From Sphingomonas sp. JC676 (GTDB lineage: Bacteria; Pseudomonadota; Alphaproteobacteria; Sphingomonadales; Sphingomonadaceae): DNA of 64,000 bases. Location: NCBI RefSeq assembly GCF_014489075.1, contig NZ_JACTGR010000004.1, forward strand, positions 434,001 to 498,000, read 5' to 3'. Below the pieces are notes generated by a model that worked only from the letters and a program-made list of their open reading frames with translations, was not told the DNA's origin and did not search any database. The translations under genes and the position numbers were made by a program. Below are positions 37,978 through 61,076 of this stretch, piece after piece; position 1 is the first letter of the stretch, and every line of letters begins with the position of its first letter.

Positions 37978-40197
37978 ATGGCGACACTTGCGCTTGATTC
38001 GAATATTCGGAGCATCAGTCCCTATGTTCTTGGGCTGCGCCAGGTCAGTCAGGGATCGAGCGAACTGATTACGAAGATCGCCGTCGGCGAGCTGGAGATC
38101 GAGGTTCGGGCAAGCGGCGATTCAGTCTGGGCGTTCATCCGCCGCACTGGCCAGGGCGGCCTCGCCTTGCGCGCTGCGTATCTCGCAGGAGACTTCACCT
38201 GGTCCAAGGTCGACGCCGAGGCCGGCGAGGCAGCGCGGTTGACGGTGAGCAGCGCGCAAGGCGAGCATCTGATCGTGTTCCGGACGGGCGGCGAGGCGCT
38301 GGAGCATTTCCGGATGACCGTCCGCCTCACGCCGGCCGCGCCGATCACCATCCCGTTCATGCCTCGCGACCTGTACCCGCTCGACGCCGACGGCGACCCG
38401 CTTTGCGCGCGCGGGACCGTGGAGGCCACCCAGCGCGGCCTCAACGGCGGCGTACTGTATTTCCGCATCGATGAGCCCGCCTTCGGGAACGTCCTCTATT
38501 TCCAGAATCTCACGGCAATGAACGACTATTGTCGCGCCACGAAAACCACGCCGGACGGCGCGGTGGGCGGCGAATGGCCCGAACTGGGCTATCTGCTTCC
38601 GACGCCCGACCAGAGCGGAACGCCGCCGACCGACGCCTTGCCCGCCGGCAAGGAAGTGACCCTCTCCGACGCCATCCTCGTCTTCCGCCACGAGGCGCCG
38701 CCGCACGAGCGCGAGTCCGCCCGGCAGTTCCTCCAGATGCTGGGCGTCGCCTACAAGATGATCGATCTGCCGCACACCCATTATCGCGACTGGGTCGATC
38801 GCGCCGAGCGCACCTTGCGGGACCTGGACAAGGCCCCTGAAGCGACGATCGAGCATTATGGCCATCGCTACATCCACCCCTACACCGCCGCCGAATATCC
38901 CGACATCATGGTGCAGATGTCTATCGTCGCCGCGGTCCATAGCTGGGGAAAATGGCGTGGCGAGCCGCATCCCCTCGACGCGGAGTTCAAGGCGGGGCTC
39001 GATAAATTCTACGACCCCAAGCTCAAGTCGCTGCGCCGGTACCTGCCCAATGTCGGGAAAGACAAGGACGCCGACGCCGTCGACAGCTGGTATCTCTACC
39101 ACCCGATGCTCAACCTGGGCATTCTGGCGCTCGACGGGGACAAGGACGCGCGTAAGCTGCTGCTGAAGTCGATCGACTTCGGTATCAAGGCGGCGCACCA
39201 TTTCAACTATGAATGGCCGATCCAGTACAAGATCACCGACTTTTCGGTGATCACGGACGTCGCGGCGGACGGCCGCGGCCAGACCGATGTCGGCGGCATC
39301 TATGCCTGGGTGATGCTCCAGGCATTCGAGCTCACCGACGAGAAGCGTTTCCTCGACGAGGCGCGTGCCGCGATCGACGCGGCAATGGGCCTGCGCTTCA
39401 ACGTCAATTACCAGGCCAACCTCACCGCTTGGGGCGCAGCCGCCTGCATGCGGCTGTGGCGGATCACCAACGAGCAGGTCTATCTCGAGCAAAGCTACGT
39501 CTATCTCGGCAGCTTCTTCCACAATTGCGAGATTTGGGAGAGCGAGATCGAACTCGCCGTCCATTATCGCAACTTCCTGGGCGTCACCTGCCTCCAGGAC
39601 GCGCCCTATATGGCGATCTACGAGTGCTTCGACTCGTTCGTGGCCTTCGAGCGCTATCTCGACGATAGCGGGCCGGACCTCGAGCCCGCCGCGCGCATGC
39701 TGATCGCCGAATATTGCAAATACGCGCTCGACCGCGCCTGGTACTATTATCCCGACGCGCTGCCGCCCGAGGTGCTCTCGCCGAAACAGCGCGAGGCGAA
39801 CGGGCATATCGACCGCAAGCTCTCCTTCCCGCTCGAGGACCTATACGCCGACGGCCAGCAGGCCGGCCAAGTCGGACAGGAAGTCTATGGCGCCGGCGCC
39901 GCCTTCATCTTCGCCACGCGTGCCTTCCACCATGTCGAGGGAGCACCGTTTCGCCTGTATTGCGACCAGTTCGTACGCTCGATGGAGCGTACCGGCGACA
40001 AGTCCCTCACCCTCACGCTCGATGGCGGAGAGACCTGCTCCGCCGGCCTGAGCCTGGTGCGCCTGAAACGCCGCAAGCTGTGCCAGACCCGCGTCACCAC
40101 GATCGGCGGCGATGTCTTGCGGCCGCGCGACACCTCCGCCGACCGCATCGAATATCGCGTCCCGGCGAATGGCCGCCTCGTGCTGAATTGGACATGA
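37978..40197 (+). CDS. Uncharacterised ~740-residue protein, probably helical-toroid carbohydrate-active (locus A copy)
   Basis: The 739-residue protein has no signal peptide and no membrane segment. The first ~230 residues look beta-rich (VWAFIRRTGQGGLALRAAYL, FMPRDLYPLD, GNVLYFQNLTAMN). Residues ~260-640 are a series of helical pairs with aromatic loops (YGHRYIHPYTAAEYPDIMVQ, DSWYLYHPMLNLG, FNVNYQANLTAWGAA, FFHNCEIWESEIELAVHYRN) like six-hairpin glycosidases, and a small beta C-terminus follows. I do not recognise a named family, and the catalytic acids cannot be assigned. Start: ATG with AGGGAA upstream; EcfG-like promoter before it. A near-full-length paralogue is at 56433. Its stop overlaps the following SDR start (ATGA). 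Confidence 0.85.
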   Translation: MATLALDSNIRSISPYVLGLRQVSQGSSELITKIAVGELEIEVRASGDSVWAFIRRTGQGGLALRAAYLAGDFTWSKVDAEAGEAARLTVSSAQGEHLIVFRTGGEALEHFRMTVRLTPAAPITIPFMPRDLYPLDADGDPLCARGTVEATQRGLNGGVLYFRIDEPAFGNVLYFQNLTAMNDYCRATKTTPDGAVGGEWPELGYLLPTPDQSGTPPTDALPAGKEVTLSDAILVFRHEAPPHERESARQFLQMLGVAYKMIDLPHTHYRDWVDRAERTLRDLDKAPEATIEHYGHRYIHPYTAAEYPDIMVQMSIVAAVHSWGKWRGEPHPLDAEFKAGLDKFYDPKLKSLRRYLPNVGKDKDADAVDSWYLYHPMLNLGILALDGDKDARKLLLKSIDFGIKAAHHFNYEWPIQYKITDFSVITDVAADGRGQTDVGGIYAWVMLQAFELTDEKRFLDEARAAIDAAMGLRFNVNYQANLTAWGAAACMRLWRITNEQVYLEQSYVYLGSFFHNCEIWESEIELAVHYRNFLGVTCLQDAPYMAIYECFDSFVAFERYLDDSGPDLEPAARMLIAEYCKYALDRAWYYYPDALPPEVLSPKQREANGHIDRKLSFPLEDLYADGQQAGQVGQEVYGAGAAFIFATRAFHHVEGAPFRLYCDQFVRSMERTGDKSLTLTLDGGETCSAGLSLVRLKRRKLCQTRVTTIGGDVLRPRDTSADRIEYRVPANGRLVLNWT

Positions 40198-40940
40198 CGA
40201 TGAAAGCCGGGACCACGCTTCAGGGCAAGCGTATCCTCGTGACCGGTGGCACCAAGGGGATCGGCCTCGCGACCGTGCGGCTCCTCGCCGACCAGGGCGC
40301 CCGGATCTTTACCTTTGGCCGGAACCAGGCCGGATTGGACGATGTCCTGGCAAGCACAGGCGGCAGCCGCGGCACCGTCAAGGGCATCACCGCAGATGTT
40401 TCCACGAAGGAAGGAATGGAGGCGGTGTTCGCCGCCGTCGACGCCGAGCTCGGCGGCATCGACATACTCGTCACCTGCGCCGCAATCGGCGCGCAGCCCA
40501 TTCATGAGATGGCGGACGACGACTGGCGCCAGGTCGTCGAGACGAATCTGATCGGCACCCTGGCGAGCGCACGCGGGGCGATCAAACGCATGGAGGCCCA
40601 GGGCGGCGGGCATCTGCTGTTCGTCGGATCGATCAGCACCGAGATCAAGGCGGAGGGAGAGAGCGTCTATTCGGCGACCAAGGCCGGGATCCAGGCCTTC
40701 GCCGAGACGCTGCGCAAGGAAGTCGCGTCGAAGCATATCAAGGTGAGCGTGGTCCAGCCCGGCTCCGTATCGACGCCTATGCAGGAATGCAGCGACGCCG
40801 AGAAGCGCGAGGCGATCGCCAATGACGAGATGCTCCATGCCGAGGAAATCGCCGAGGCGATCGAGTTCGTCCTGACCCGGTCCGAGCGCGCCGATGTGCT
40901 CAACCTGCGCATCGAGCCGCGGCTTCAAAAGACCAGCTGA
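40194..40940 (+). CDS. SDR-family oxidoreductase, coupled to the unknown carbohydrate protein
   Basis: The 248-residue short-chain dehydrogenase has the cofactor loop ILVTGGTKGIGLATVRLL, with TCAAIGAQPIHEM replacing the N-A-G motif, and catalytic VGSISTEIKAEG...YSATKAGIQAF. It ends with LNLRIEPRLQKTS, a tail also present in the SDR at 43091 (LRIEPLVQKIF). Its ATG overlaps the preceding stop as ATGA. The related SDR of locus B also precedes the GH130-like gene, so a sugar or sugar-derivative substrate is likely. Confidence 0.9.
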   Translation: MTMKAGTTLQGKRILVTGGTKGIGLATVRLLADQGARIFTFGRNQAGLDDVLASTGGSRGTVKGITADVSTKEGMEAVFAAVDAELGGIDILVTCAAIGAQPIHEMADDDWRQVVETNLIGTLASARGAIKRMEAQGGGHLLFVGSISTEIKAEGESVYSATKAGIQAFAETLRKEVASKHIKVSVVQPGSVSTPMQECSDAEKREAIANDEMLHAEEIAEAIEFVLTRSERADVLNLRIEPRLQKTS

Positions 40941-40977: not shown

Positions 40978-42030
40978 ATGAAGGCAGCGTTGAAGACCGC
41001 CGAAGGACGGTTCGAAGTCAGCGAGGTCGATCGTCCGCAGATACCCAGCGCCGATTGGGTGCTGGCCCGCGTGCGCGTCGCCGGGATCTGCGGCACCGAT
41101 CTTCGCCACTGGGGCAAGCACGAACCCGAGCTCGAGCATCACATCATGGGTCATGAACTTGCCGGCGAAGTCGTCGAGGTCGGGGCAGCGGTCACCAATG
41201 TGGCGTCCGGCGACCGGGTGGTCATCGAAAGCGTAATGGGCGACGGCGAATGCGAATGGTGTCGCGTCCAGCAATATAACCTGTGTCCCAACCTCTACGA
41301 GGTCCGTACCAAATGCGTGTCGCGCGCTTATGGCGAGTTCGTGACCGGCCCGGCGAAGAAATTCTACAAGCTGCCCGACCATGTCAGCTTCGAGGAAGCG
41401 GCGCTGATCGATACCTTTTCGGTGTGCCTCCATGCCCAGCATAAGTCCGGCCTCTCCATCAATGACAAGGTCGCCATCATCGGGGCGGGCCCGATCGGAC
41501 TAGGGCAGCTGATGCTCGCCAAGGCCAGCGGCGCCGATGTGCTGATCCTCGACGTCGTCGACAGTGCTTTGGAGCTGGCGCTCGAACTCGGCGCGGATGT
41601 CGTGCTCAACAGCGGCCGAGAGGATCCCGTGGCGGCGGCTATGGCGTTCACCGGCGGACGCGGCGTCGACATCGCCTTTGAATGCTGCGGCGGGGAGAAG
41701 ATGCCGACCACGTTGCCCCAGGCGACCCGAATGGCGCGGCGCGGCGGCAAGGTCGTGCTGGTCGGCGGCTTCGACAAGGGCGTGATCGAGATCGGCCTGG
41801 AGTGGCAGCGCATCCAGATGTCGGAGATTCAGCTGATCCCGAGCGCCAGCTTCTCCTTCCATGGCCTCGACGCCGAACAGGGCATGGCGCTCGAGCTGCT
41901 GTCCAAGGGTAAGCTCAATGCCAGCAAGCTGATCACGCATCGTTTCAGGCTCGACCAGATCAACGAAGCTTTCGAGGCGGCGGCCGCGAAGGACGAGACC
42001 GCCGCCACGTTTGTCGCGGTCCTGATCTGA
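40978..42030 (+). CDS. Zinc-dependent dehydrogenase (threonine/sorbitol dehydrogenase-like)
   Basis: The medium-chain dehydrogenase has 350 residues. Catalytic zinc site: VAGICGTDLRHWG and MGHELAGEVVEVG; structural-zinc-type Cys: GDGECEWCRVQQYNLCPN; NAD loop: VAIIGAGPIGLGQLMLAK. The arrangement resembles sorbitol or L-threonine dehydrogenases acting on polyols. AGGGAGA precedes the ATG. It is followed by a lactonase-like gene starting at its stop (TGATG), which fits a pathway where a sugar is oxidised to a lactone and then opened. Confidence 0.9.
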   Translation: MKAALKTAEGRFEVSEVDRPQIPSADWVLARVRVAGICGTDLRHWGKHEPELEHHIMGHELAGEVVEVGAAVTNVASGDRVVIESVMGDGECEWCRVQQYNLCPNLYEVRTKCVSRAYGEFVTGPAKKFYKLPDHVSFEEAALIDTFSVCLHAQHKSGLSINDKVAIIGAGPIGLGQLMLAKASGADVLILDVVDSALELALELGADVVLNSGREDPVAAAMAFTGGRGVDIAFECCGGEKMPTTLPQATRMARRGGKVVLVGGFDKGVIEIGLEWQRIQMSEIQLIPSASFSFHGLDAEQGMALELLSKGKLNASKLITHRFRLDQINEAFEAAAAKDETAATFVAVLI

Positions 42031-43067
42031 TGGGCGCAGGGACCAGGGCGCCCCAGCTCTTTGTCGGCACTTATGCCCGAGGTGGGGACGGCGGCCTTTA
42101 TCCGCTGTACCCCAACGCCGATGGCGGCTGGGAGCTCGGGGAACCTAGCCCCTGCGCGCCCAATGCCTCGTTCGGGACCTATTCGCCGCGTTTTGGCCTC
42201 CATTATCTCGTCGATGAACGCGAGATGGGTGCGCTGCGCGTGCTCCGCCGTGAGGACATATGGCAGCCGCTTGCGCGCCTGCCGACGCAAGGCGCGCTGC
42301 CGTGCTATGCTGCGCTCAGCCCGGACGAGGGCTGGCTTGCCGTCACCAATTATGGGTCGGGCAGCATGGTCTTGTTCCGCCTTGACGCGGACACCGGTCT
42401 GGCCGGCGACCCCATGGTCGTGCACGAGAATGGCGGCCACGGCCCTGTTACTGATCGGCAGGACGCACCGCACGCACATTGCGCCGTGTTCAGCCCGGAC
42501 GGCAAATGGCTGTACCAGACCGATCTCGGCACCGACGAGGTGCTGGCCTTCCCATTCGATGCACAGCGGGGGCCCGGCGACCGCCAAGTGGCATTCACGG
42601 CCCCGCCCGGCTCCGGGCCTCGGCATCTCGTCTTTCACCCCGACAAGGCGATCGCATTCCTGGTGAGCGAGCTGGCTAGCACGCTCACGGTGTTCGACGT
42701 CGAGCAGGGGGCGCTCGCCCAGCGGCAATGTCTCTCAACGCTCCCCGGCGGGTTCGGCGCAGACAGCCTGGGCGGCCATGTCGCGATCAACGCAGCCGTC
42801 GACCGCGTCTATGTCACCAATCGCGGGCACGACAGCATCGCGACCTTCGCTCTGGACGCGAACGCCCATCTGGCGCTCCTCGGCCATACGCCTGCAGGTG
42901 GCGCATCGCCCCGCTTCTTCCGCTTGCTCGAGGCAGAGCGCCGGATGCTCGTCGCCAACGAAGACGGCAACAATATCACCGTGTTCGACATCGCTCCCGA
43001 CGGGGCGCCGCGCCAGTGTGGCGAGGTGGCGGTGCCAGCGCCCGCCTTCGTGTTCGCCGCCTCATAA
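42030..43067 (+). CDS. Seven-bladed beta-propeller lactonase family protein
   Basis: The 345-residue protein has repeated propeller blades: LFVGTYARGGDGGLYPL, CYAALSPDEGWLAVTNYGSG, HCAVFSPDGKWLYQTDLG, HLVFHPDKAIAFLVSEL, VYVTNRGHDSIATFAL and MLVANEDGNNITVFDI. This is the 6-phosphogluconolactonase-like (YbhE/lactonase) fold, which hydrolyses sugar lactones. No signal peptide, so probably cytosolic. It starts one base inside the dehydrogenase stop (TGATG) and fits as the next step after dehydrogenation. Confidence 0.9.
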   Translation: MGAGTRAPQLFVGTYARGGDGGLYPLYPNADGGWELGEPSPCAPNASFGTYSPRFGLHYLVDEREMGALRVLRREDIWQPLARLPTQGALPCYAALSPDEGWLAVTNYGSGSMVLFRLDADTGLAGDPMVVHENGGHGPVTDRQDAPHAHCAVFSPDGKWLYQTDLGTDEVLAFPFDAQRGPGDRQVAFTAPPGSGPRHLVFHPDKAIAFLVSELASTLTVFDVEQGALAQRQCLSTLPGGFGADSLGGHVAINAAVDRVYVTNRGHDSIATFALDANAHLALLGHTPAGGASPRFFRLLEAERRMLVANEDGNNITVFDIAPDGAPRQCGEVAVPAPAFVFAAS

Positions 43068-43090: not shown

Positions 43091-43825
43091 ATGTCAGATC
43101 TTGCTGGCAAACGCGTGTTGATAACCGGCGGTGCCGGCGGCGTCGGCCGCGCGGTCGCGCAGCGCATGGCGGCCGCCGGCGCGCGCGTGCTGATCGCCGA
43201 TCGCGGTGAGCTCGAGCTCCGCGAGGTCGTGGAGGGGCTGGCGCAATTGGGCGAGATCGAAGCTGTCACGGCCGATCTCTCGAGTGCCACGGGTTTGTCG
43301 CGGATGTTCGACCGGGTCGATGGCTGGCTCGGCGGCCTCGACATCCTGGTTGCCTGCGCCGGCGTCGGCTCCGGGCCGCTCATGGAGATGGACGACGCCG
43401 ACTGGCGTTACGTCATCGAAAGCAACCTCATGAGCTATGTCGCGTGTACCAAGGGCGCGATCGACCGCATCAAGGCAAGCGGCACAAAGGATGGCATGAT
43501 CATCCTCGTCGGGTCGATCAGCGTGCATATCAAGGCGGTCGGCGAAAGCGTCTACAACGCCGCCAAGGGCGGCGTCGCTTCGTTCGCGGAGACGCTGCGC
43601 AAGGAGCTCATCCCCGAGAGCATCCGCCTCACCCTGATCGAGCCCGGCGCGATCGGCTCGGCGATGCAGCCTTATTCCGCGGAGGAACGCGACCGCGAGA
43701 TGCAGGCCTACAAGATGCTCCCGCCGGCGGAAGTGGCCGAGGCGATCCTGTTCGCGGCGACGCGTCCGCCGGGCGTGGACGTGGTTACGCTCCGGATCGA
43801 ACCGCTCGTGCAGAAGATCTTCTGA
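43091..43825 (+). CDS. SDR-family oxidoreductase (second SDR of locus A)
   Basis: The 244-residue SDR carries VLITGGAGGVGRAVAQRMAA as the cofactor loop, VACAGVGSGPLMEMDDADW, then VGSISVHIKAVGES and YNAAKGGVASF as the catalytic site. It ends in VVTLRIEPLVQKIF, the same tail type as the SDR at 40194. AGAAAGGAAC precedes the ATG. It lies just before the GH130-like gene, as the locus B SDR does before its copy. Confidence 0.9.
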   Translation: MSDLAGKRVLITGGAGGVGRAVAQRMAAAGARVLIADRGELELREVVEGLAQLGEIEAVTADLSSATGLSRMFDRVDGWLGGLDILVACAGVGSGPLMEMDDADWRYVIESNLMSYVACTKGAIDRIKASGTKDGMIILVGSISVHIKAVGESVYNAAKGGVASFAETLRKELIPESIRLTLIEPGAIGSAMQPYSAEERDREMQAYKMLPPAEVAEAILFAATRPPGVDVVTLRIEPLVQKIF

Positions 43826-43970: not shown

Positions 43971-45113
43971 ATGAATCACTATGACGTGGACAGACTGATA
44001 TTCGGACCGGCCGATATCGACTTGTCCCGCTCTCCCCTTGCGGCGGGCATGGCCCGGGCCGGCGCCGAGACCTATGTCCTCGGTGCCTTCAACCCCGGCA
44101 TGACGCGCCTGCCGAGCGGCAACCTGCTCTTGATGGTGCGTGTCGCCGAGGCGCTGCGTTCGCCGATCTTCGACGGCCATGTCCATTCGGTCCGCTGGGA
44201 CGAGGAGCAAGGCTATGTCCTCGATGCCTGGCCGTTGGAGCTCGCCGACACCGCCGACCCGCGTCAGTTCAGGCTCAACGGCGGCGGCTGGAAGGTCCTC
44301 GCGCTGACCTCGCTGTCCTGGCTTCTGCCTGTCGAGCTCACCCCCGACGGTCTAGAGGTCATCAGCATCCATTACGACAAGGCCATAGCGCCGCAGGGCA
44401 GCTATCAATGCTATGGCGTCGAAGACGCGCGGATCAGCAAGGTCGGCGAGCGCTACCTGATGACCACCTGCTCGGTCAGCCCCGAACGGCATTCGACGAC
44501 GCTCTACACGTCCGATAACGGTTTGGACTGGGCCTTCCAGGGCATCGTGCTCGATCATCAGAACAAGGACATGCTGATCTTCGAAGGCCTGGTCGACGGG
44601 CAATTCTGGGCCCAGACCCGGCCGCTGGGCGACCATTTCTTCGCCTATCCCCCGAACAGCCCATGGCGGGCCGGTCCCTCGATCAACCTGGCAACCTCTC
44701 CCGACGCCATCCACTGGCGGCCGCATCTCGCGCCGGGCATCCGGCCTTATGCCGGCACCGTCGCCGCTGCCCGGATGGGCGGCGGCGCACCGCCGATCCT
44801 GACCGAAATCGCGGGCAAGCGCGGCTGGCTGTCGCTGTGGCACGGCGTCGAACCCAAGGAGATCATCGGTGTCTACCGGACCTATTGGTCGCTCCTCGAT
44901 CCGGAAGATCCAGCCAGGGCCCTTGCGACGCGCGAGCAGCCATTGCTGGAGCCCAATCCGGAGCTCACCCGGCCGCTCGAAGAGCTGCTATATGTCCGCG
45001 ATGTCGTGTTCACGACCGGCATCGCGGAGGCGGGCGACCACTTCGTCGTCGCCTCCGGCGAGGCCGATCTCGCATGCCGGATCACCCATATCCCCAAGGC
45101 CATGTTCGGCTGA
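43971..45113 (+). CDS. GH130-like glycoside phosphorylase/hydrolase (locus A copy)
   Basis: The 380-residue, probably five-bladed beta-propeller protein is related to glycoside hydrolase family 130 (beta-mannoside phosphorylases). It shows GAFNPGMTRLPSGNLLLMVR near the N-terminus, CYGVEDARISKVGERYLMTT with the E-D-A-R motif of the family, HQNKDMLIFEGLVDGQFWA and WHGVEPKEIIGVYRTYWSLLD. No signal peptide. GGGAG seven bases before the ATG sets the start. A close paralogue is at 59934. Phosphorolysis versus hydrolysis and the true substrate are open. Confidence 0.85.
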   Translation: MNHYDVDRLIFGPADIDLSRSPLAAGMARAGAETYVLGAFNPGMTRLPSGNLLLMVRVAEALRSPIFDGHVHSVRWDEEQGYVLDAWPLELADTADPRQFRLNGGGWKVLALTSLSWLLPVELTPDGLEVISIHYDKAIAPQGSYQCYGVEDARISKVGERYLMTTCSVSPERHSTTLYTSDNGLDWAFQGIVLDHQNKDMLIFEGLVDGQFWAQTRPLGDHFFAYPPNSPWRAGPSINLATSPDAIHWRPHLAPGIRPYAGTVAAARMGGGAPPILTEIAGKRGWLSLWHGVEPKEIIGVYRTYWSLLDPEDPARALATREQPLLEPNPELTRPLEELLYVRDVVFTTGIAEAGDHFVVASGEADLACRITHIPKAMFG

Positions 45114-45188: not shown

Positions 45189-46676
45189 ATGAGCGGGGTC
45201 CTTGTCGGCGTGGATTCCTCCACCCAGTCCTGCAAGGTCCTGGTCCTTGATGCGGATACGGGCGTCATCGTCGCATCGGGAAGCGCCCCGCACCCGGACG
45301 GCACCGCGGTCGACCCCATGGCCTGGATCGATGCGCTGGGCGCAGCCTGGAGCGCAGCCGGCGTCGCGGAGCGCACCGACGTGCTGGGTGTTGGCGTGTG
45401 CGCGCAGCAGCACGGGATGGTCGCGGTCGATCGGGACGGCCATCCGGTGCACGACGCACTGCTTTGGAACGACCTGCGCAGCGCGGGGCAGGCCCGGGAT
45501 ATGGTCGCGCAGATGGGCATTGCCGGCTGGATGGAGGCGGTCAATGTGCTGCCGGTCGCAGCCATCACCCTGACCAAGCTTGCCTGGCTGCGCGAGCATC
45601 GGCCCGAGGCGGCGGCACGGGTGCACCGCGTGATGCTGCCGCATGACTGGCTGGTGCTGCACCTTACCGGTGCGTTCGTCACCGATCGCTCCGATGCCTC
45701 GGGCACGGGCTATTTCAGCGCCGAGGCCAACCGCTACCGACCCGACCTGCTCGAGCGGTATTTCGGCGCGGTTCCGCAGCTTCCCAGGGTCCTGCGGCCC
45801 GACGAAGCGGCGGGGACGCTGCTGCCCCGATGGGGCGGCCGCGGGCGGCCCATCCCGGTCTCGGCCGGGGCCGGCGACAATGCCGGCGCCGCGCTGGGCC
45901 TGGAGCTGGAGCCGGGCGATGTCGTTATTTCGGTCGGCACGTCGGGCACGATATTCACCCGGGCGGCCAGGCCGGTGTGCGATCCCAGCGGCATCACCGC
46001 CGGATTCGCTGCTGCGACAGGGGACCATCTGCCGCTTTTATGCACCCTCAACGCCGCACGGGTGATGACCGCCACCGCGGCCTTGCTTTCGGTCGATCTG
46101 GCGAGGTTCGATGCGCTGGCGCTGGCTGGGAAGGACGATGCCGGCGGCTTGACGATGCTTCCCTATTTCGATGGCGAGCGTACCCCGGACCTGCCGGATG
46201 CGACCGGGCAGTTGCACGGCCTCACCCGCGACGCGTTTACGCCGGAGAATCTGGCGCGCGGCGCGGTACTCGCCGTCGCGAACGCGCTGGCCGATTGCGT
46301 GGGCATGCTCCGGGCGATCGATGCGCCGGTGGGCCGGCTGCTGCTGATAGGGGGCGGCGCGAAGTCGGCTGCGCTACGCGCGGTGCTTCCCGATACGCTC
46401 GCAGCATCGCTGATCCTGCCCGCGACGTGCGAATATGTGGCGCTGGGCGCGGGACGGCAGGCGGCATGGGCTGCAACCGGCCGGCTGCCCTGCTGGGGGC
46501 GCCGCATCGAGGCGGTGCTCGAGCCCAACCTGGATCCAGGCGCAGCGGCATACCGCGATCGCTATGCGCGGTTGCGCGACGCGCTTGTCAGCGACTCGCT
46601 GCGACCAGCCTCTCGATCGTCGCCCGGGCGCCGAGCTGGTGAAAGGAGTCCAGCGCGCGCAGATAGGGAGCGGTGA
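45189..46676 (+). CDS. FGGY-family carbohydrate kinase (xylulokinase-like)
   Basis: The kinase has 495 residues. N-terminal ATPase-fold motif GVDSSTQSCKVLVLDADTG, CAQQHGMVAVDRDG and LLWNDLRSAGQARD, then the C-terminal domain with GAGDNAGAALGLELEPGD, VISVGTSGTIFT and RLLLIGGGAKSAALRAV. This is the xylulokinase type, phosphorylating a ketose. The last ~30 residues are Arg/Pro-rich and overlap, on the opposite strand, the end of the mannitol-dehydrogenase-like gene. Together the two suggest polyol to ketose to ketose-phosphate conversion. Confidence 0.92.
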   Translation: MSGVLVGVDSSTQSCKVLVLDADTGVIVASGSAPHPDGTAVDPMAWIDALGAAWSAAGVAERTDVLGVGVCAQQHGMVAVDRDGHPVHDALLWNDLRSAGQARDMVAQMGIAGWMEAVNVLPVAAITLTKLAWLREHRPEAAARVHRVMLPHDWLVLHLTGAFVTDRSDASGTGYFSAEANRYRPDLLERYFGAVPQLPRVLRPDEAAGTLLPRWGGRGRPIPVSAGAGDNAGAALGLELEPGDVVISVGTSGTIFTRAARPVCDPSGITAGFAAATGDHLPLLCTLNAARVMTATAALLSVDLARFDALALAGKDDAGGLTMLPYFDGERTPDLPDATGQLHGLTRDAFTPENLARGAVLAVANALADCVGMLRAIDAPVGRLLLIGGGAKSAALRAVLPDTLAASLILPATCEYVALGAGRQAAWAATGRLPCWGRRIEAVLEPNLDPGAAAYRDRYARLRDALVSDSLRPASRSSPGRRAGERSPARADRER

Positions 46677-51520: not shown

Positions 51521-51537
51521 ATCCCGGGGGGGACGCA

Positions 51538-52534: not shown

Positions 52535-52553
52535 CCATTCGCTCCGCTCTCGC

Positions 52554-52578
52554 AACCCTGTTGCGCGCGGATGGTTCC
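52554..52578 (-). promoter_or_regulatory. EcfG-like promoter of the PAS-domain gene
   Basis: Minus-strand GGAAC, 16 bases, GGTT. The -35-like box abuts the stop codon of the upstream kinase gene, giving the PAS gene its own stress-type promoter inside a likely operon. It rules out the longest start of the PAS gene. Confidence 0.62.
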
Positions 52579-54759
52579 CTATCCGGCACCATCCAGCGTG
52601 TCCCGGACCCTGGCGGCAAGGTCGCTGAACGTGAACGGCTTGGTAATCAGCTGGACGCCTTTGTCGAGACGTCCATGATGCACAATTGCATTGCGCGCGT
52701 AGCCGGTTGTGAACAGCACCTTCAGTGTCGGGACAAGCTTTCTCGCTTCGACGGCGACCTGCGCGCCGGTCATCCCGCCAGGCAGCACGACGTCTGTGAA
52801 CAGCAGATCGACCCGGGATTGCCGCTCCAGCAGGCGCAACGCCGACGGTCCGTCATGGGCTTCGACGACGCGGTACCCTAGCTCGCGCAGGCATTCGACC
52901 GAATAGGTCCGCACATCATCGTCGTCCTCAAGGACAAGAATGGTTTCCTCGGCGGCCCCTTCGGGAATCGGACCAATTTTCTCTGTCTCAACGTCGATTG
53001 CGGCGCGCATCAGCCTGGGCAGATAGATCTTGATCGTCGTGCCCTGACCGAGCTCCGAATAAATCTTCACATGTCCACCCGATTGCTTGACGAAACCGTA
53101 TACCTGGCTGAGGCCCAGACCCGTTCCTTTGCCGACCGGCTTGGTGGTAAAAAATGGCTCGAACACCTGGTCGAGCGTGGCGCCGTTCATGCCCACTCCG
53201 GTGTCTGAAACGGAGACCATGACATACTGGCCCGGAGCGACCTCGGTATGCACGGCCGCGTAGGCCTCGTCGATATGCGTGTTAGCCGTCTCGATGGTCA
53301 GCTTGCCGCCTTCCGGCATCGCGTCGCGAGCATTGACTGCAAGGTTGAGGATGGCCGCTTCCAGCTCATTGGCATCCACCTCGACCTGCCAGAGGCCCGC
53401 CGCCTGAACCGATTCGATCGACACCGCCTCGCCTAGGGTGCGCTGTAGGAGCTCCGACAGTCCCCCGACCAAAGTATTGAGGTTCGCGGGCTTCGGATCC
53501 AGCGGTTGGCGGCGGGAAAAGGCCAGCAGCCTCTGGGTAAGCGCGGCCGCGCGCTCGGCTCCCTTCATAGCGTGAGTCGCCGCGCGTTGCAGCCGCGGGG
53601 AGCCATCCTCGAGATTGCGATTCAATATGTCGAGATTGCCGATGATGACCTGAAGGAGGTTGTTGAAGTCGTGCGCGACGCCGCCCGTCAGCTGACCGAC
53701 CGCCTCCATCTTTTGTGATTGTCGCAGCGCCTCCTCATTGCGACGCAAGGCTTCGGTTCGTTCGGCGACCTGTTGTTCGAGCGTTGCGTTTAGTTCGCGC
53801 AAGGCCGCTTCGGCGCGTCGGCGCTGATCGAGCTCGCGCTGGGCAGATCGGCTCAGGTTGGCATTGTCGATCGCAACGCCCGCCTCGGCGGCAAGGCTGA
53901 TCATACCGCGCTCGGAGCTCTCGCTGAAAACGCCCACGGACGAGTGGCCGAAGAACAGACCGCCGAGAACCTCTCCGGAACGCGAGAACACCGGGACGGC
54001 GAGATAACTACGTACCGGGAGATGGCCGTCGGGCATGCCTGACCGCGGCGCGTTATGCCCGTAGCGCGCGTCCTGCGTAATGTCGTCCGAACGGACGATG
54101 CCCTCTCCGTTGAAGGTGGGCGCGAACACCGCGGTGTTACGCGGCATTGGAAACTTCTCGAATGCAGACCGCGGCGCGCCGGAGAGGGTGTAGAGCGTGT
54201 AGCTCTCGCCGGCATCGTTCTCGACATTGTAGAAGAAGGCACCGAACTGTGCGCCGCTTAGTTCAACACCGGCGTCGGTCACGGTCTGCACGAGGCGGTC
54301 CAGATCGGGCTCGCGGTTCAAGGCCGACCCAGCGCGTTGCAAGATGCCCAAGATGCGGGTTTCCTCATGGAGGGCACTTTCGGCGCGCTTCCAGTCGGTC
54401 CGGTCGCGGACGATTTTGACAAAGCCTTCAATTGGGCCGTCGCCGTCCCGGATCGGCGCCATCTCGCCGATCGCCCAGATTCGCTCTCCGTCCTTTCGGA
54501 TGCGCCAACCTTCCTGGCCGCCTTTCCCTGTGCGACGGGCGTCTTCGAACTCAGCGGCGAGGCGACCCGCTTTGATGTCCTCGGCGTCGAACAAGCGCTC
54601 GAGGCGCTCGCCTCGCATCTCTGCTTCTGTCCAGCCGAGAAGTCGTTCGGCCCCCGCGTTCCAGGAGACGACATCACCCTCCGGATCGAGGGTGATAATC
54701 CCGGTATCGACCGCACTATCGAGGATCGCCGACAGCGTCTTCGCGTTCAACTCAATCAT
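52579..54759 (-). CDS. PAS-GAF hybrid histidine kinase with receiver
   Basis: The kinase has 726 residues. PAS (~8-125, ITLDPEGDVVSWNAGAERLL), GAF (~140-300, LSGAQFGAFFYNVENDAG), coiled coil (~305-350), HisKA with GQLTGGVAHDFNNLLQVI, ATPase with ILNLAVNARDAMPEGGKL and GKGTGLGLSQVYGFVKQSGG, and a receiver with acceptor Asp in LLFTDVVLPGGM and Lys in LITKPFTFSDL. No membrane segment, so a cytosolic redox, light or small-ligand signal is likely. It resembles the kinase at 36180 in its core. The PAS protein gene follows directly. Confidence 0.94.
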   Translation of the reverse strand: MIELNAKTLSAILDSAVDTGIITLDPEGDVVSWNAGAERLLGWTEAEMRGERLERLFDAEDIKAGRLAAEFEDARRTGKGGQEGWRIRKDGERIWAIGEMAPIRDGDGPIEGFVKIVRDRTDWKRAESALHEETRILGILQRAGSALNREPDLDRLVQTVTDAGVELSGAQFGAFFYNVENDAGESYTLYTLSGAPRSAFEKFPMPRNTAVFAPTFNGEGIVRSDDITQDARYGHNAPRSGMPDGHLPVRSYLAVPVFSRSGEVLGGLFFGHSSVGVFSESSERGMISLAAEAGVAIDNANLSRSAQRELDQRRRAEAALRELNATLEQQVAERTEALRRNEEALRQSQKMEAVGQLTGGVAHDFNNLLQVIIGNLDILNRNLEDGSPRLQRAATHAMKGAERAAALTQRLLAFSRRQPLDPKPANLNTLVGGLSELLQRTLGEAVSIESVQAAGLWQVEVDANELEAAILNLAVNARDAMPEGGKLTIETANTHIDEAYAAVHTEVAPGQYVMVSVSDTGVGMNGATLDQVFEPFFTTKPVGKGTGLGLSQVYGFVKQSGGHVKIYSELGQGTTIKIYLPRLMRAAIDVETEKIGPIPEGAAEETILVLEDDDDVRTYSVECLRELGYRVVEAHDGPSALRLLERQSRVDLLFTDVVLPGGMTGAQVAVEARKLVPTLKVLFTTGYARNAIVHHGRLDKGVQLITKPFTFSDLAARVRDTLDGAG

Positions 54760-55284: not shown

Positions 55285-55818
55285 GTGGTGCTGCTTGCCG
55301 CCACCGGCGCGCGCTTCTCCCAGATTGCCCGGATGACCGTCGGCGACGTCCAACTGAGCCAGTCACGATTGATGATCCCGCAATCGTTCAAGGGTCGCAA
55401 GCGCACGCTCAGCTATATCCGCGTGCCCGTAGGCGCCGACACGATCGCCGCGATCGAGCCCGCCACGCGCGGTCGCAGCCCGTCCGCGCCGCTTCTTGAG
55501 CATTGGCGCCACAAGCAGGTCGGGCCGAACCAGTGGGAGCAGGTGGACCGCGGTCCCTGGGCTTCGTCCTCGGCGATGCTGTGGCCGTTCCACAAGGCCG
55601 TGGAGGATGCCGGGCTCAGCAGCGCGATCATCCCCTATGCGCTGCGGCATTCATCGATTGTGCGGGGGCTGCGCGCCGGACTGCCGATCCGGCTGGTTGC
55701 GGCGCTCCACGATACGTCGGTCGCGATGATCGAACGGCATTATTCGCGCTGGATTACCGAAGGCCTTGACGAGCTAATCGCGCGCGCTGTGGTTCCGATC
55801 GTCTCCAAGGCGGCATGA
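55285..55818 (+). pseudogene. Tyrosine recombinase/integrase, N-terminally truncated
   Basis: About 177 residues of the catalytic domain remain. LLAATGARFSQIARMTVGDV holds the first catalytic Arg, PYALRHSSIVRGLRAGLP the H-x-x-R pair, and AALHDTSVAMIERHYSRWI the final His and nucleophile Tyr. A stop codon lies just upstream in frame and no SAM-like N-terminal domain precedes it, so it is a relic. It marks a former integrated element; no attachment site or tRNA was found next to it. Confidence 0.78.
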
Positions 55819-56432: not shown

Positions 56433-58658
56433 CTAGGTCCAGGTGAGAATTACCCGTCCATTTGCCGGAACGCGAAAGTCGATGCGATCCGCGGAGCTGG
56501 TATGCGGCCGCAACGCATCTCCACCGACGGTGACGAGCCGTACGGTGGGGAGTTTGCGGCGTTTCCGGCGCACGACGCTCAACCCCGCCGTGCAGGTCTC
56601 ACCACCATCCAGGGTCAGAGTGAGGGCATTATCGCCGGTACGTTCGCGGGCGCGCACGAAATGGTCGCAGTAGAGGAGGAAGGGTGCGTCCTCGACCTGA
56701 TGAAAGGAGCGCGTCGCGAAGACCATTGCCGCGCCCGCGCCATAGACTTCCTGTCCAACCTGGCCCGCAAGCTGGCCGTCGGGATAGAGGTCCTCGATCG
56801 GAAAGGAGAGCTTGCGGTCGACATGCCCGTTCGTTTCGCGCTGCTTTGGCGAGATTGCTTCGGGAGGCAGCGCGTCGGGGTAATAGAACCAGGCGCGATC
56901 AAGGGCATATTTGCAATATTCGGCGATCAGCATGCGCGCCGCAGGCTCAAGGTCGGGACCACTATCGTCGAGATAATTCTCAAAGGCGGTATAGGCGTCG
57001 AAACATTCATAGATCGCCATGTACGGCGCATCCTGCAGGCAGGTCGCCCCAAGGAAGTTGCGGTAATGGACGGCCAGCTCGAGCTCGCTCTCCCAGATCT
57101 CGCAGTTGTGGAAGAAGCTGCCGAGATAGACATAGCTCTGTTCCAGGTACACGTCCTGGGAGGTGATCCGCCACAACCGCATGCAGGCCGCGGCGCCCCA
57201 TGCTGTGAGATTGGCCTGGTAATTGACGTTGAAGCGCAGGCCCATCGCGGCGTCGATCGCAGCACGCGCTTCGTCGAGAAAGCGCTTGTCGTCGGTCAGC
57301 TCGAAAGCCTGGAGCATGACCCAGGCGAAGACGCCCCCAACGTCGGTTTGGCCGCGCCCATCTGCCCCGGCAGTCTCGGTGATTACCGAGAAGTCTTTCA
57401 CACTATACTGGATCGGCCACCGGTACTTGAATCGGTGCGCGGCCTTGATGCCGAACTCGATGGACTTGAGAAACAGGGCGCGCGCCTCGGTGTCGCCGTC
57501 GAGCGCGAGCCGCCCGAGATTGAGCATCGGATGGTAGAGGTACCAGCTGTCGACAGCATCGGCGTCCTTGTCGTCGCCGACGTTCGGCAGGTAGCGCCGA
57601 AGCGTGTCGAGTTTGGTATCGTAGAACTTGCCGAGCCCGGCCTTGAACTCGGCTTCGAGCGGATGCGGCTCCCCGCACCACTTGCCCCAGTCGTGGATCG
57701 CCGCGACGATCGACATCTGGACCATGATGTCGGGATATTCGGCTGCGGTGTAGGGATGGACATAGCGATGGCCATAGTGGCGGATGGTGGCCTCGGGCGC
57801 CTCGTCCAGGTCGCGCAAGGTGCGTTCGGCGCGATCGATCCAGTCCCGATACTCGGTGCGCGGCAAGTCGAGCATCTTATAGGCGACGCCGAGCATCTGC
57901 AGGAACTGGCGCGCCGACTCCCGCTCCTCCGAGTTGGTCTCGTGCCGGAAGACCAGGATCGCATCGGACAAGGTCAGTTCGACGCCTGCGGCCAGCGGCT
58001 GGGTCGGCGGCGTACCGCTTTGGGTCGGCGTAGGTGGCAGGTAGCCCAGTTCTGGCCACACCCCTCCGACCGCGCCATCCGGACTGGTCTTGGTCGCGCG
58101 GTAGAATGGATTCATCGCGGTCAGGTTCTGGAAATAGAGGACATTCCCGAAGGCGGGCTCCTCCAACCGGAAATAGAGCAGGCCCGAATTGAGACCGCGC
58201 TGGCCCGCTTCCACTGTTCCGACCGAGCCGAGCGGATCGTCATCGTTGTCAAGCGGGTACAAGTCACGCGGCAGGAACGGCACAAGCAAGGACGCCGAAG
58301 GGGTGAGCGTCACCGTCAGGCGTAGATTCTCGAGCGCATCGCCGCCCGTGCGCAGGGTGATCATGTGTTCGCCGATTACACTCGACACGCGCAGGCGGAT
58401 CGCCTCGCCCGCTCCGGGCTTTAGCTTCGTCACTTCGTAGTCATCGGCGAGAAAGGCAGCGCGGAGCGCAAGCCCACCGCGCCCAGGGCGGCGGATCAAG
58501 GCCCAAACCGAATCCCGGCTGCGCACCATCTCAACGTCGAGCGCTCCGACCGCGCAATTCGCAATCTTCTTGGTCGAGCCCTCGGCGAGCGCTCGGCGCA
58601 AGGCGAGGACAAACGGTGTCGCGCTGAAGTTCTTCGGTTGGAGAGCAGTCGTCGCCAT
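56433..58658 (-). CDS. Uncharacterised ~740-residue protein, probably helical-toroid carbohydrate-active (locus B copy)
   Basis: The 741-residue protein aligns end to end with the product of 37978-40197: beta-rich first third, helical toroid (YGHRYVHPYTAAEYPDIMVQ, DSWYLYHPMLNLG, FNVNYQANLTAWGAA, FFHNCEIWESELELAVHYRN) and beta C-terminus ending VPANGRVILTWT. Aromatic and acidic loop residues are kept, which suggests both copies are active. The start is an ATG with AGGGGA upstream and an EcfG-like element 39 nt before it; a longer frame to 58946 crosses that promoter and is rejected. It is divergent from the SDR-GH130 pair. Family unknown to me. Confidence 0.85.
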   Translation of the reverse strand: MATTALQPKNFSATPFVLALRRALAEGSTKKIANCAVGALDVEMVRSRDSVWALIRRPGRGGLALRAAFLADDYEVTKLKPGAGEAIRLRVSSVIGEHMITLRTGGDALENLRLTVTLTPSASLLVPFLPRDLYPLDNDDDPLGSVGTVEAGQRGLNSGLLYFRLEEPAFGNVLYFQNLTAMNPFYRATKTSPDGAVGGVWPELGYLPPTPTQSGTPPTQPLAAGVELTLSDAILVFRHETNSEERESARQFLQMLGVAYKMLDLPRTEYRDWIDRAERTLRDLDEAPEATIRHYGHRYVHPYTAAEYPDIMVQMSIVAAIHDWGKWCGEPHPLEAEFKAGLGKFYDTKLDTLRRYLPNVGDDKDADAVDSWYLYHPMLNLGRLALDGDTEARALFLKSIEFGIKAAHRFKYRWPIQYSVKDFSVITETAGADGRGQTDVGGVFAWVMLQAFELTDDKRFLDEARAAIDAAMGLRFNVNYQANLTAWGAAACMRLWRITSQDVYLEQSYVYLGSFFHNCEIWESELELAVHYRNFLGATCLQDAPYMAIYECFDAYTAFENYLDDSGPDLEPAARMLIAEYCKYALDRAWFYYPDALPPEAISPKQRETNGHVDRKLSFPIEDLYPDGQLAGQVGQEVYGAGAAMVFATRSFHQVEDAPFLLYCDHFVRARERTGDNALTLTLDGGETCTAGLSVVRRKRRKLPTVRLVTVGGDALRPHTSSADRIDFRVPANGRVILTWT

Positions 58659-58697: not shown

Positions 58698-58722
58698 AAC
58701 AGCGGTTCGAGACCGATGTTCC
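58698..58722 (-). promoter_or_regulatory. EcfG-like promoter of the locus B unknown gene
   Basis: Minus-strand GGAAC, 16 bases, TGTT; the only one of the eight with T instead of G at the first -10-like base. Its distance to the ATG (39 nt) matches the locus A copy (37 nt). Confidence 0.6.
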
Positions 58723-59108: not shown

Positions 59109-59133
59109 GGAACTCCTTACGCGGCATGGGGTT
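59109..59133 (+). promoter_or_regulatory. EcfG-like promoter of the SDR-GH130 pair (locus B)
   Basis: Plus-strand GGAAC, 16 bases, GGTT, 21 nt before the ATG at 59155, with AGGGAGA between as ribosome binding site. Confidence 0.65.
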
Positions 59134-59154
59134 CGAGCGGCGAGGGAGAATTTC

Positions 59155-59937
59155 ATGTCAATCCTAGCCGACCCGCCCGCCCGTAGCCTTTCCGACGCAC
59201 ATACCGCCATGCCGAGCCTCAAGGGGCGCAAGGCAATCGTCACCGGCGGTACCACGGGGATTGGGCGGGCCATTGCTACGCTGCTTGCGTCCGAGGGCGT
59301 TGACGTTTTCGTCTGCGGTCGAGACCCCCAGCACCTCCAGGATGGACTCGAACGCATCCGTGAGGTCGGCAAGGGCAATGGCATTGCGATCGACTTGGCA
59401 GAGATAGACGGTGTCGATCGTTTTGTGCAGGCGGCAAGGGACTATTTCGGCGACTTCGATATCGCAATCGTGAACGCTGCGATTCCGGCGCAGGGCGTCA
59501 CCAAGATGAGCGCCGACGAACTCCGCTATGCGATCGCTACCGACTTCACTGCCTATCTCACGACAGCCCATGCCGCAGCGGAGGTTTTGAAGGACAAAGG
59601 TGACATCGTCTTCATCGGTTCTGTCGCTGCCCATATCCTGGGTGGAGATTCCAGCGTCTATGCCGGCATGAAGGCAGGCGTCGCCGGCTTTGCCGAAGCG
59701 CTCCGCAAGGAGCTGGCTCCAAAGGGAATCAAGGTCTGCAACGTCGAGCCTGCCAAGACCGGCGCCGACTTCCAGTATCCGAGCTTCACGGCGGAGGAGC
59801 AGGCGGAGGAAAATCGCAAGGAAACGATGTTGCGCGCGGAGGACATCGCAGTCGCGGTCCACTTCGTCCTCACTCAGGCGCGCCGCGCCAACGTCCAGCA
59901 GGTGGTGATCGCGCCGCGCGCGCGAGGTGAGGAATGA
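59155..59937 (+). CDS. SDR-family oxidoreductase (locus B)
   Basis: The 260-residue SDR has AIVTGGTTGIGRAIATLLAS as the cofactor loop, VNAAIPAQGVTKMSADELRY and catalytic IGSVAAHILGGDSSVYAGMK (Ser and Tyr-x-x-x-Lys). It is related to the two SDRs of locus A (same G-S-[IV]-x-x-x-I and FAEALRKEL segments). AGGGAGA upstream of the ATG. Its stop overlaps the GH130-like start as ATGA, so the two proteins are made together. Confidence 0.9.
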   Translation: MSILADPPARSLSDAHTAMPSLKGRKAIVTGGTTGIGRAIATLLASEGVDVFVCGRDPQHLQDGLERIREVGKGNGIAIDLAEIDGVDRFVQAARDYFGDFDIAIVNAAIPAQGVTKMSADELRYAIATDFTAYLTTAHAAAEVLKDKGDIVFIGSVAAHILGGDSSVYAGMKAGVAGFAEALRKELAPKGIKVCNVEPAKTGADFQYPSFTAEEQAEENRKETMLRAEDIAVAVHFVLTQARRANVQQVVIAPRARGEE

Positions 59938-61076
59938 GCGGCTTTCCCGTCGATCGCTTGATCCTCGGTCCGGACGATATCGACCTGTCCCGCTCCCCGC
60001 TGGCGGGACACTTCGATGCCGAGACCTATGTTCTCGGCGCGTTCAATCCCGCGCTGACGCGCCTTCCCAATGGCAATCTCGCCATCTTCGTTCGCGTGGC
60101 GGAAGCGCTGCGGCGGCCGATCTATGACGGATATATTCATGCGATCCGCTGGGAAGACGGCAGGTTTGTTCTCGACGCTTGGTCCCTCGAGCTCGTCGAC
60201 ACCGCGGATCCTCGCAAATTCCTACTTCGCGGTGGACGCTGGAAAGTCATGGCGCTGACATCGCTATCCTGGATCCTGCCGGTCGAGCTCAGCCCCGATG
60301 GGTTGGAGATCGTCGAGATTCACTATGACAAGGCAATCGCGCCAGAGGGCAGTTTCCAATGCTATGGCATCGAGGACGCTCGTGTCTCCAAGGTCGGGGA
60401 TCGCTGGCTGATGACGACCTGCTCGGTAAGCCCGGAGCGTCATTCGACCACCCTTTACAGTTCTGACAACGGTCTCGACTTCCGCTTCGAGGACATCGTC
60501 CTCGACCACCAGAACAAGGACATGCTGATCTTCGAGGGGCTGATCGACGGCAAATATTGGGCGCAGACGCGCCCGCTCGGCGACCTCTATTTCACCTATC
60601 CGCCAGGTAGCGAATGGCGCGGCGGGCCCTCGATCAATCTGGCTACCTCGCCCGACGCGCTGCACTGGAAGCCGCACCGCGAGCCAGGAATCCGTCCGCA
60701 CGCCGCGACGATCGCCACCGCGCGCATGGGCGGCGGTACGCCGCCTATCCTAACGGACGACGGATGGCTGACATTGTGGCACGGTGTCGAGCCCAAGGAG
60801 ATTGTCGGCATCTACCGTACCTATTGGTCTATCCTTGACCGGGACGATCCGGCCAAGGTTGTTCGGACCGAGCATAGCCCGCTCCTCGAGCCCGCGCCCG
60901 ATCTCACCAAGCCGCTGGAGGACAAGATGTACGTCCGGGACGTGGTTTTCACCACCGGGATTGCCGACGGGGGTGACCATTACATCGTGGCGTCGGGCGA
61001 GGCGGACCTGGCTTGCCGCATCACGCATATCCCGAAGTCGGTGTTTCAGACGGCGAGGATAGAGGAAGCGGCCTAG
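59934..61076 (+). CDS. GH130-like glycoside phosphorylase/hydrolase (locus B copy)
   Basis: The 380-residue paralogue of 43971-45113 has nearly every motif preserved: GAFNPALTRLPNGNLAIFVR, CYGIEDARVSKVGDRWLMTT, HQNKDMLIFEGLIDGKYWA and WHGVEPKEIVGIYRTYWSIL. The same length and same neighbour type (SDR) point to one shared reaction in both loci. Translation is coupled to the SDR (ATGA). The stop TAG is shared with the stop of the convergent dehydratase gene (CTAG). Substrate unknown. Confidence 0.86.
   Translation: MSGFPVDRLILGPDDIDLSRSPLAGHFDAETYVLGAFNPALTRLPNGNLAIFVRVAEALRRPIYDGYIHAIRWEDGRFVLDAWSLELVDTADPRKFLLRGGRWKVMALTSLSWILPVELSPDGLEIVEIHYDKAIAPEGSFQCYGIEDARVSKVGDRWLMTTCSVSPERHSTTLYSSDNGLDFRFEDIVLDHQNKDMLIFEGLIDGKYWAQTRPLGDLYFTYPPGSEWRGGPSINLATSPDALHWKPHREPGIRPHAATIATARMGGGTPPILTDDGWLTLWHGVEPKEIVGIYRTYWSILDRDDPAKVVRTEHSPLLEPAPDLTKPLEDKMYVRDVVFTTGIADGGDHYIVASGEADLACRITHIPKSVFQTARIEEAA

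Follow-up and report, generated by a model that had tools for sequence, protein, structure and literature searches.

A protein family encoded twice in a Sphingomonas genome is a candidate glycosidase family with a linked clade of short-chain dehydrogenases

The 64,000-nucleotide stretch of the Sphingomonas sp. JC676 genome analysed here (the window; the host genome has 4.87 Mb) carries two loci, A and B, that each encode a protein of about 740 residues, hereafter UNK, together with short-chain dehydrogenases (SDR) and a protein of glycoside hydrolase family GH130. Judged by sequence comparison, UNK represents an undescribed family without a Pfam entry. Our leading reading, which we hold tentatively, is that UNK may be the founding member of a hitherto undescribed family of cytoplasmic and anomer-inverting glycosidases, similar in build to clan GH-L and to GH94, which would act with the SDR and GH130 in a stress pathway controlled by the sigma factor EcfG. 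The substrate cleaved by UNK would be an intracellular glycoside, either made or taken up by the cell under stress. The sugar or polyol set free would be oxidised or reduced by the partner SDR, together with a zinc-type alcohol dehydrogenase (MDR) and a lactonase where these are present, and GH130 would act on the same pool by phosphorolysing, or making, a β-1,2-linked mannoside. These genes would be turned on by EcfG, with the general stress response, in Alphaproteobacteria. The gene set is real and partly conserved; the enzyme family at its centre is undescribed and has a build that can be recognised, and we hypothesise that UNK and GH130 have a substrate in common.

An AlphaFold2 model of the whole of UNK has a predicted local distance difference test score (pLDDT) of 91.8 and a predicted template modelling score (pTM) of 0.93, and a model of residues 1-264 alone has a pLDDT of 91.9. 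The reading made from sequence alone had guessed a helical toroid, and the model bears this out: an (α/α)6 toroid is predicted at residues about 265-668. UNK would thus be composed of an N-terminal β-sandwich, a helical linker, a toroid of 12 helices with an active-site pocket, and C-terminal β-strands, a build like that of GH65, GH15 and GH94. This domain order, read from the models and their matches and not from a separate search with the C-terminal strands, is that of clan GH-L; for GH65, the cited part of PMC8626586 gives it as β-sandwich, linker, (α/α)6 barrel and C-terminal sheet. The N-terminal domain aligned to the GH65 α-1,2-glucosidase 7fe3 with a Z score of 12.9 and a root mean square deviation (RMSD) of 3.7 over 209 residues, and to GH97 (Z 12.7), GH15 glucoamylase (12.2), kojibiose phosphorylase (11.8) and GH94 (11.2); scores less than 1 apart count as tied, so that GH65, GH97 and GH15 are tied. 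Foldseek alone gave nothing below E 0.001 for the N-terminal domain, the best match being a putative kojibiose phosphorylase at 0.0061, and for the whole model it gave GH94 matches with poor superposition. The toroid aligned to GH76 with a Z score of 26.1 and an RMSD of 3.6 over 327 residues, and further to cellobiose 2-epimerase (Z 23.2) and D-mannose isomerase (Z 22.4). These GH76 α-1,6-mannanases and AGE/cellobiose 2-epimerases, its best matches, differ from UNK in that their chains, mostly of 330-475 residues, align to the toroid only (about 265-680 in the model), at identities of at most about 10%.

In the model, helices 1 to 6 of the toroid consist of segments 272-285, 310-327, 332-344, 374-385, 389-408 and 438-453, and helices 7 to 12 of segments 456-469, 480-497, 500-515, 547-567, 570-590 and 637-649. 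By helix counting, Y302 is located on the loop between helices 1 and 2, D437 at the end of the loop between helices 5 and 6, and E620, D621 and E635 on the loop between helices 11 and 12. D437 and Y302 are present in all 86 members of an alignment of the family, and E620, D621 and E635 in 85, with one gap. According to the same part of PMC8626586, FjGH65A and a GH15 enzyme have the acid on the α5-α6 loop and the base on the α11-α12 loop, and in GH15 a Tyr between α1 and α2 is bonded to the base. On this topology, the candidate general acid of UNK is D437 on the loop ahead of helix 6, and the candidate general base is one of the three loop residues ahead of helix 12 (E620, D621 and E635). UNK is like GH65 (kojibiose phosphorylase, FjGH65A) and GH15 glucoamylase in domain order and in folds, and by helix counting its invariant carboxylates would sit on the corresponding loops, ahead of helices 6 and 12; it differs from them in having no detectable sequence similarity and in that its candidate acid is Asp, not Glu. 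Since the sequence gives no kinship with GH15, we class UNK as GH-L-like in build and probably in mechanism, and not as a member of GH15 or GH65. No strongly hydrophobic N-terminal stretch was seen in UNK on a crude hydrophobicity scale.

Matches of UNK to Pfam, NCBIfam and PADLOC were all below cut-off, with no PADLOC match that would give it an anti-phage role; that the family is unrecognised, as had been said from the sequence, holds for Pfam and NCBIfam. Thirty-nine UNK proteins, including both window copies, were aligned, and in these the Pfam models of GH65 had no match at E up to 1, under HMMER filters that drop most weak matches. Membership in GH15 was rejected, there being no Pfam match and a probability of only 0.6% when the family was compared by hhalign with a profile of 30 GH15 proteins. 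Against solved structures, phmmer gave a best E of 0.7 and so no named function, and a profile search gave LanC-like protein 2 (E 0.0007) over about 62 positions of a helical-toroid repeat; naming a function from such matches was dropped. Among the open-licence papers searched on GH130, mannogen, stress response, compatible solutes and the fold, none was seen, judging by titles and abstract openings, that describes the module.

The toroid matches bring in another explanation, in which UNK is a sugar epimerase or isomerase, similar to AGE, cellobiose 2-epimerase and mannose isomerase or to C5-epimerases; the SDR, MDR and lactonase would oxidise its product, and GH130 would supply mannose or mannose 1-phosphate. 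The Z scores to cellobiose 2-epimerase and D-mannose isomerase agree with this, the commonest weak Pfam matches of UNK are to the C5-epimerase C-terminus (17 of 39 members, best E 0.01), and the several dehydrogenases of locus A would suit free-sugar or polyol chemistry. We consider it unlikely. The N-terminal domain of UNK is of the GH65/GH97/GH15/GH94 kind, which AGE enzymes are not known to have, and GH76 outscores AGE in the toroid match. Furthermore, AGE catalysis employs several His residues, while H375 is the sole invariant His of UNK and H408 is nearly invariant among the 39 aligned members.

The glycosidase proposal also draws on the genes around UNK. In the window these are as follows, with start codons picked by us among the possible starts.
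37916-37940, + strand: EcfG-type motif GGAAC-N17-GTT, 5' of UNK_A
37978-40197, + strand: UNK_A, 739 residues, unrecognised family; predicted N-terminal β-sandwich, (α/α)6 toroid and C-terminal β-strands
40194-40940, + strand: SDR1_A, short-chain dehydrogenase by Pfam match, member of the partner SDR clade
40978-42030, + strand: MDR_A, zinc-type alcohol dehydrogenase, polyol-dehydrogenase-like (sorbitol dehydrogenases are its closest solved relatives)
42030-43067, + strand: 7-bladed lactonase (PF10282), 6-phosphogluconolactonase/gluconolactonase-like
43091-43825, + strand: SDR2_A, second short-chain dehydrogenase, partner SDR clade
43971-45113, + strand: GH130_A, β-1,2-mannoside-phosphorylase-like
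45189-46676, + strand: xylulokinase-like FGGY kinase (375.9 bits, cut-off 380.25)
46588-48096, - strand: mannitol dehydrogenase family protein, convergent to locus A and probably a mere neighbour
56433-58658, - strand: UNK_B, second copy, 741 residues, 78% identical to UNK_A
58698-58722, - strand: EcfG-type motif, 5' of UNK_B
59109-59133, + strand: EcfG-type motif, 5' of SDR_B
59155-59937, + strand: SDR_B, divergent from UNK_B
59934-61076, + strand: GH130_B, β-1,2-mannoside-phosphorylase-like, with D148, K195, R213, R264 and H283

The sequence-only reading had described a duplicated three-gene module. The same protein of about 740 residues and a GH130 are indeed encoded in both loci, with UNK copies 78% and GH130 copies 73% identical. 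Locus A is collinear as was said, and it comprises seven + strand genes rather than three: UNK, SDR, zinc-type MDR, lactonase, second SDR, GH130 and FGGY kinase. The ATG of SDR1_A overlaps the stop codon of UNK_A (ATGA). All three window SDRs exceed the Pfam adh_short cut-off (170.5, 149.9 and 127.2 against 26.6 bits). An SDR is thus found in both loci; these SDRs belong to one clade and are not copies of one gene, given identities of 37% between SDR_B and SDR1_A, 31% between SDR_B and SDR2_A, and 44% between SDR1_A and SDR2_A.

A pattern search of 84,980 species genomes gave 97 UNK relatives, the best 80 of which, in 77 loci, were kept. Neighbourhoods were counted at 66 alphaproteobacterial loci other than the window, with flanks of up to 10 kb and less at contig ends, using tblastn, which is independent of start calls and replaced an earlier blastp on open reading frames. 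In a midpoint-rooted tree of 95 SDRs from the loci, the SDRs adjoining UNK in both Alphaproteobacteria and Bacteroidota form one clade of 52 (support 0.92), which includes SDR1_A, SDR2_A and SDR_B. Membership in this clade follows the distance from UNK: of the SDRs less than 1.5 kb away, 44 of 48 belong to it, of those at 1.5-4.5 kb, 8 of 23, and of those farther away, none of 24. SDRs of the clade are found at 34 of the 66 loci; counted per UNK copy, they accompany 36 of 67 in Alphaproteobacteria, the window included, and 9 of 19 in Bacteroidota. In one locus (L013, 7917-8669) the SDR match is split in two pieces, by decay or a sequencing break. GH130 lies within 10 kb of UNK at 17 of the 66 loci, and the full triad of UNK, clade SDR and GH130 is found at 9. 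Relatives of MDR_A, taken at E <= 1e-80 from the ten top candidates of each genome, occur in 4 of the 199 genomes sampled from the window's family, all of them bearing UNK and with the MDR gene adjoining it. In Bacteroidota, UNK is accompanied by an MDR 63-66% identical to that of the window, and Mucilaginibacter has the order UNK-MDR-SDR.

A second sample, drawn from genomes, compared 27 UNK regions (19 of the window's family and 8 of Bacteroidota) with 20 control regions elsewhere in the same genomes. SDR was found in 14 of 27 UNK regions against 0 of 20 controls, MDR in 7 against 0, and GH130 in 6, all among the 19 of the window's family, against 0; the lactonase was not enriched (2 of 27 against 1 of 20). 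Nine of the 27 regions coincide with the fetched loci from which the gene panel was picked, so that these counts are not independent; they support the linkage of UNK without being independent proof of it. The dedicated system read from the sequence is partly supported: its core consists of toroid and SDR, with one SDR clade in two phyla, and GH130 is an occasional neighbour. The SDR link is its firmest element.

GH130_A and GH130_B exceed the cut-off of Pfam PF04041 (68.3 and 75.1 against 26 bits), and they are far under the NCBIfam equivalog cut-offs for β-1,2-mannobiose phosphorylase (126 and 133.5 against 550 bits; 93.7 and 99.6 against 450). In all 19 GH130 proteins near UNK, those of the 17 loci and both window copies, E147, D148, K195, R213, R264 and H283 are kept. 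R213, R264 and H283 align with R, R and H of Lin0857, and K195 with a Lys of Lin0857, Uhgb_MS and 1,2-β-oligomannan phosphorylase. The part of PMC4599007 cited here states that the equivalent of Lys199 of BT3780 marks β-1,2 specificity in GH130, and that GH130 phosphorylases have three basic phosphate-binding residues in place of the Glu pair of BT3780. In our reading of the alignment, R213, R264 and H283 would be the phosphate residues, and we infer from a shared motif that K195 is the equivalent of Lys199; these residues would fit β-1,2 specificity and phosphorylase rather than hydrolase chemistry. More generally, the catalytic Asp, adjoining Glu, β-1,2 Lys and basic residues of Lin0857, Teth514_1788/1789 and Uhgb_MS align with the window GH130, which differs from Lin0857 by insertions of ten residues after R213 and three after H283.

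At the genome level, relatives of GH130_B (E <= 1e-60) occur in 45 of 199 genomes of the window's family, that is in 20 of 20 UNK carriers and 25 of 179 non-carriers. In Bacteroidota, GH130 (E <= 1e-50) occurs in 28 of 296 genomes, including all 8 with a whole UNK (one of them in two frames), and was not found in the ninth, which has an UNK fragment only; no GH130 was seen in the flanks of the Bacteroidota UNK loci searched. These counts include the host genome and a Mucilaginibacter genome (G207) picked for carrying UNK, and their Fisher values are descriptive only because the genomes are related. A control gene, xylose isomerase, shows no such link (25 of 199 genomes, 3 of 20 carriers). The GH130_B clade was rejected as an obligatory partner, as another GH130 clade co-occurs equally and six carriers lack a close GH130. 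UNK carriers are GH130-bearing genomes; outside the loci where the two genes are close together, a partnership of UNK with this GH130 clade is not proven. The link is frequent in sphingomonads and not exclusive.

Given these GH130 residues, UNK could instead be a glycoside phosphorylase or glycan synthase similar to GH94 or GH65, which with GH130 would build and mobilise an intracellular reserve or osmolyte of β-1,2-mannan type, a bacterial counterpart of the mannogen of Leishmania. The N-terminal domain matches GH65 and GH94 phosphorylases, Foldseek matches the whole model to GH94 (poorly superposed), and GH130 keeps the β-1,2 Lys and basic residues and is nearest to the β-1,2-mannobiose phosphorylase Lin0857 and the mannoside synthase Uhgb_MS; the stress context described below (motif enrichment and stress-gene neighbours) would suit such a reserve. 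We judge this quite improbable. The cited part of PMC8626586 places the Glu base of a GH65 hydrolase where GH65 phosphorylases bind phosphate, and the corresponding loop of UNK carries three invariant carboxylates. Moreover, no glycosyltransferase was found by profile matches among the window genes of either locus, and six carrier genomes have no close GH130.

The EcfG part of the glycosidase proposal comes from promoter motifs. EcfG-like promoters had been read from the sequence in both loci. The strict pattern GGAAC-N16/17-CGTT has no match in the window, and the loose GGAAC-N17-GTT is present upstream of UNK_A, UNK_B and SDR_B. A looser search, GGAAC-N15..18-GTT, gave 8 window matches where 4.2 were expected, a number reached in 8 of 100 shuffles; three of these 8, each on the correct strand, leave 37 bp to the start of UNK_A, 39 bp to that of UNK_B and 21 bp to that of SDR_B. 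The portion of PMC6599016 cited here, on the EcfG regulon of S. melonis Fr1, gives target sites of the same form, GGAAC-N16/17-GTT, and its list includes sites ending in GGTT or TGTT. The motif is enriched upstream of UNK relatives: in a stretch that starts 300 bp upstream and reaches 30 bp into the gene, GGAAC-N16..18-GTT is found at 20 of 64 alphaproteobacterial UNK genes, and of control segments of equal length from the same loci, 152 of 7812 (1.9%) have it; two of the 66 loci, having no 5' end, are left out. It is found at none of 11 Bacteroidota UNK genes, which is expected if the motif is that of EcfG. Regulation of the alphaproteobacterial genes by EcfG would be consistent with these counts.

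Stress genes (Mn-catalase, DUF892, stress-type SDR, DNA ligase and KaiC) occur in 10 of 27 UNK regions against 0 of 20 controls; one control region has a stress-type SDR that, with an identity of 33%, did not reach the cut of 35%. Since stress genes adjoin UNK in both phyla, a stress role of UNK that does not depend on the sigma factor is suggested. The assorted stress genes in the flanks of many UNK loci, and the fact that the toroid gene also occurs apart from GH130 and SDR, could also mean that there is no dedicated pathway, only a general-stress gene island where an unrelated glycosidase, SDR and GH130 cluster with other stress genes. Against this stand the ATGA overlap of UNK_A and SDR1_A, the one SDR clade tied to UNK in two phyla, the restriction of MDR to UNK in the sample, and the UNK-MDR-SDR order of Mucilaginibacter, and we find it an unlikely account.

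UNK is found in 20 of 199 genomes of the window's family, the host genome included, and in 3 of 349 genomes drawn from the phylum, all three in the window's genus. In Bacteroidota, the phylum of G207, it is found in 9 of 296 genomes (7 whole in one frame, 1 in two frames and 1 fragment), a count that includes G207, the centre of the sample chosen for carrying UNK. All 19 Bacteroidota members fall in a clade of their own, at 33-36% identity. Three Pleomorphomonas have UNK and, because they are nested among sphingomonads in the tree (supports 0.51-0.81), possibly acquired it. In the tree of 86 members, copy A groups with L003 (support 0.65), which has the order UNK-SDR-MDR-lactonase-SDR as in locus A, and copy B with L024 and L007 (support 0.95), of which L024 has an SDR_B-type gene and GH130 nearby and L007 an SDR2-type neighbour. 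The duplication that had been read from the window is not favoured: copies A and B group with different relatives, differ in context and seem to have been inherited as two separate lineages instead of arising by one local duplication, the node that joins them having a support of only 0.65.

Several observations weigh against the glycosidase proposal. On the side of the enzyme, no sequence link of UNK to any GH family was found, the GH15 profile probability included, and the weak Pfam matches point elsewhere, to the C5-epimerase C-terminus as given above and to GH88 (4 of 39 members, best E 0.003). The toroid alone scores highest with GH76 and epimerases rather than with GH65 or GH15, and the N-terminal domain likewise matches mutarotases and GH97, of which the latter has a different barrel. 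E202, D369, E461, E549 and E578 are as invariant in the 86 members as the candidate residues, so that the acid and base assignment rests on topology, that is on helix counting in the model. On the side of the pathway, the sequence-only reading would be refuted if UNK homologues mostly lacked SDR and GH130 neighbours, and this holds by half: about half of the UNK loci have no partner SDR, and UNK relatives occur mostly without GH130 (34, 17 and 9 of 66 loci for clade SDR, GH130 and triad). The different GH130 clade, present in 72 of 199 genomes, is also found in 20 of 20 UNK carriers, and a close GH130 was not found in 3 Pleomorphomonas and 3 Sphingobacterium carriers among 13 genomes looked up. 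The motif is absent from 44 of the 64 alphaproteobacterial loci, and EcfG is restricted to Alphaproteobacteria in the cited part of PMC3892343. The stress-gene panel, finally, was picked from fetched loci that make up 9 of the 27 regions, so that its counts are not independent.

Other features of the window and of the related loci were noted. Directly upstream of locus A are a KaiC-like double ATPase and then a hybrid histidine kinase with a receiver (34667-37853); KaiC-like genes are near UNK relatives in 2 of 27 regions. The stretch between the loci (49778-54759) encodes a PAS-GGDEF-EAL protein and a PAS-GAF hybrid histidine kinase. Just before locus B, an open reading frame of 177 residues (55285-55818) matches the phage integrase family from profile position 30 onward and is a possible mobile-element remnant. 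Of seven GH130 matches in the host genome, five are strong and two borderline. On contig C23, a GH130-GH13-GT4 row (L172, 4634-8485, - strand) contains a third relative of the window GH130, with an identity of 58%, and L173 has the same order; this row may correspond to #1750 and #1751 of S. melonis Fr1, listed as EcfG-dependent 'Glycosyltransferase' and 'Glycosidases' genes in the cited part of PMC6599016. The UNK family could not be mapped onto Fr1 genes; the parts consulted of two studies of solute stress in S. wittichii report trehalose and exopolysaccharide genes, none of them mappable to UNK. In Bacteroidota, an MFS gene after UNK-MDR-SDR (L078, 14049-15341) and one beside GH130 (L088, 150-1439) encode proteins 46% identical, which may be an indirect link between UNK and GH130; the MFS of the Sphingomonas and Bacteroidota loci were rejected as one family, no similarity being found. 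A contig labelled Arthrobacter (L072) holds a sphingomonad-type UNK-MFS-patatin-MDR locus and is probably misnamed or contaminated. UNK is in two pieces in G810 (C1:546533-548721), and G091 has a remnant (C1:1005241-1005688) alongside an intact copy, through decay or sequencing breaks.

The UNK family has no Pfam entry and offers a well-modelled enzyme for which candidate catalytic residues and a partner dehydrogenase can be named. UNK is present in few genomes, so that comparing the metabolites of strains with and without it is feasible. The module hints at a possible undescribed stress metabolite in environmental bacteria. More doubtfully, sphingomonads and some Bacteroidota might share an undescribed intracellular stress-glycoside pathway, with a role like that of trehalose or mannogen, in which the new glycosidase and the SDR, with MDR and lactonase, would process a β-mannosyl glycoside made or recovered by GH130 and would be induced in general stress.

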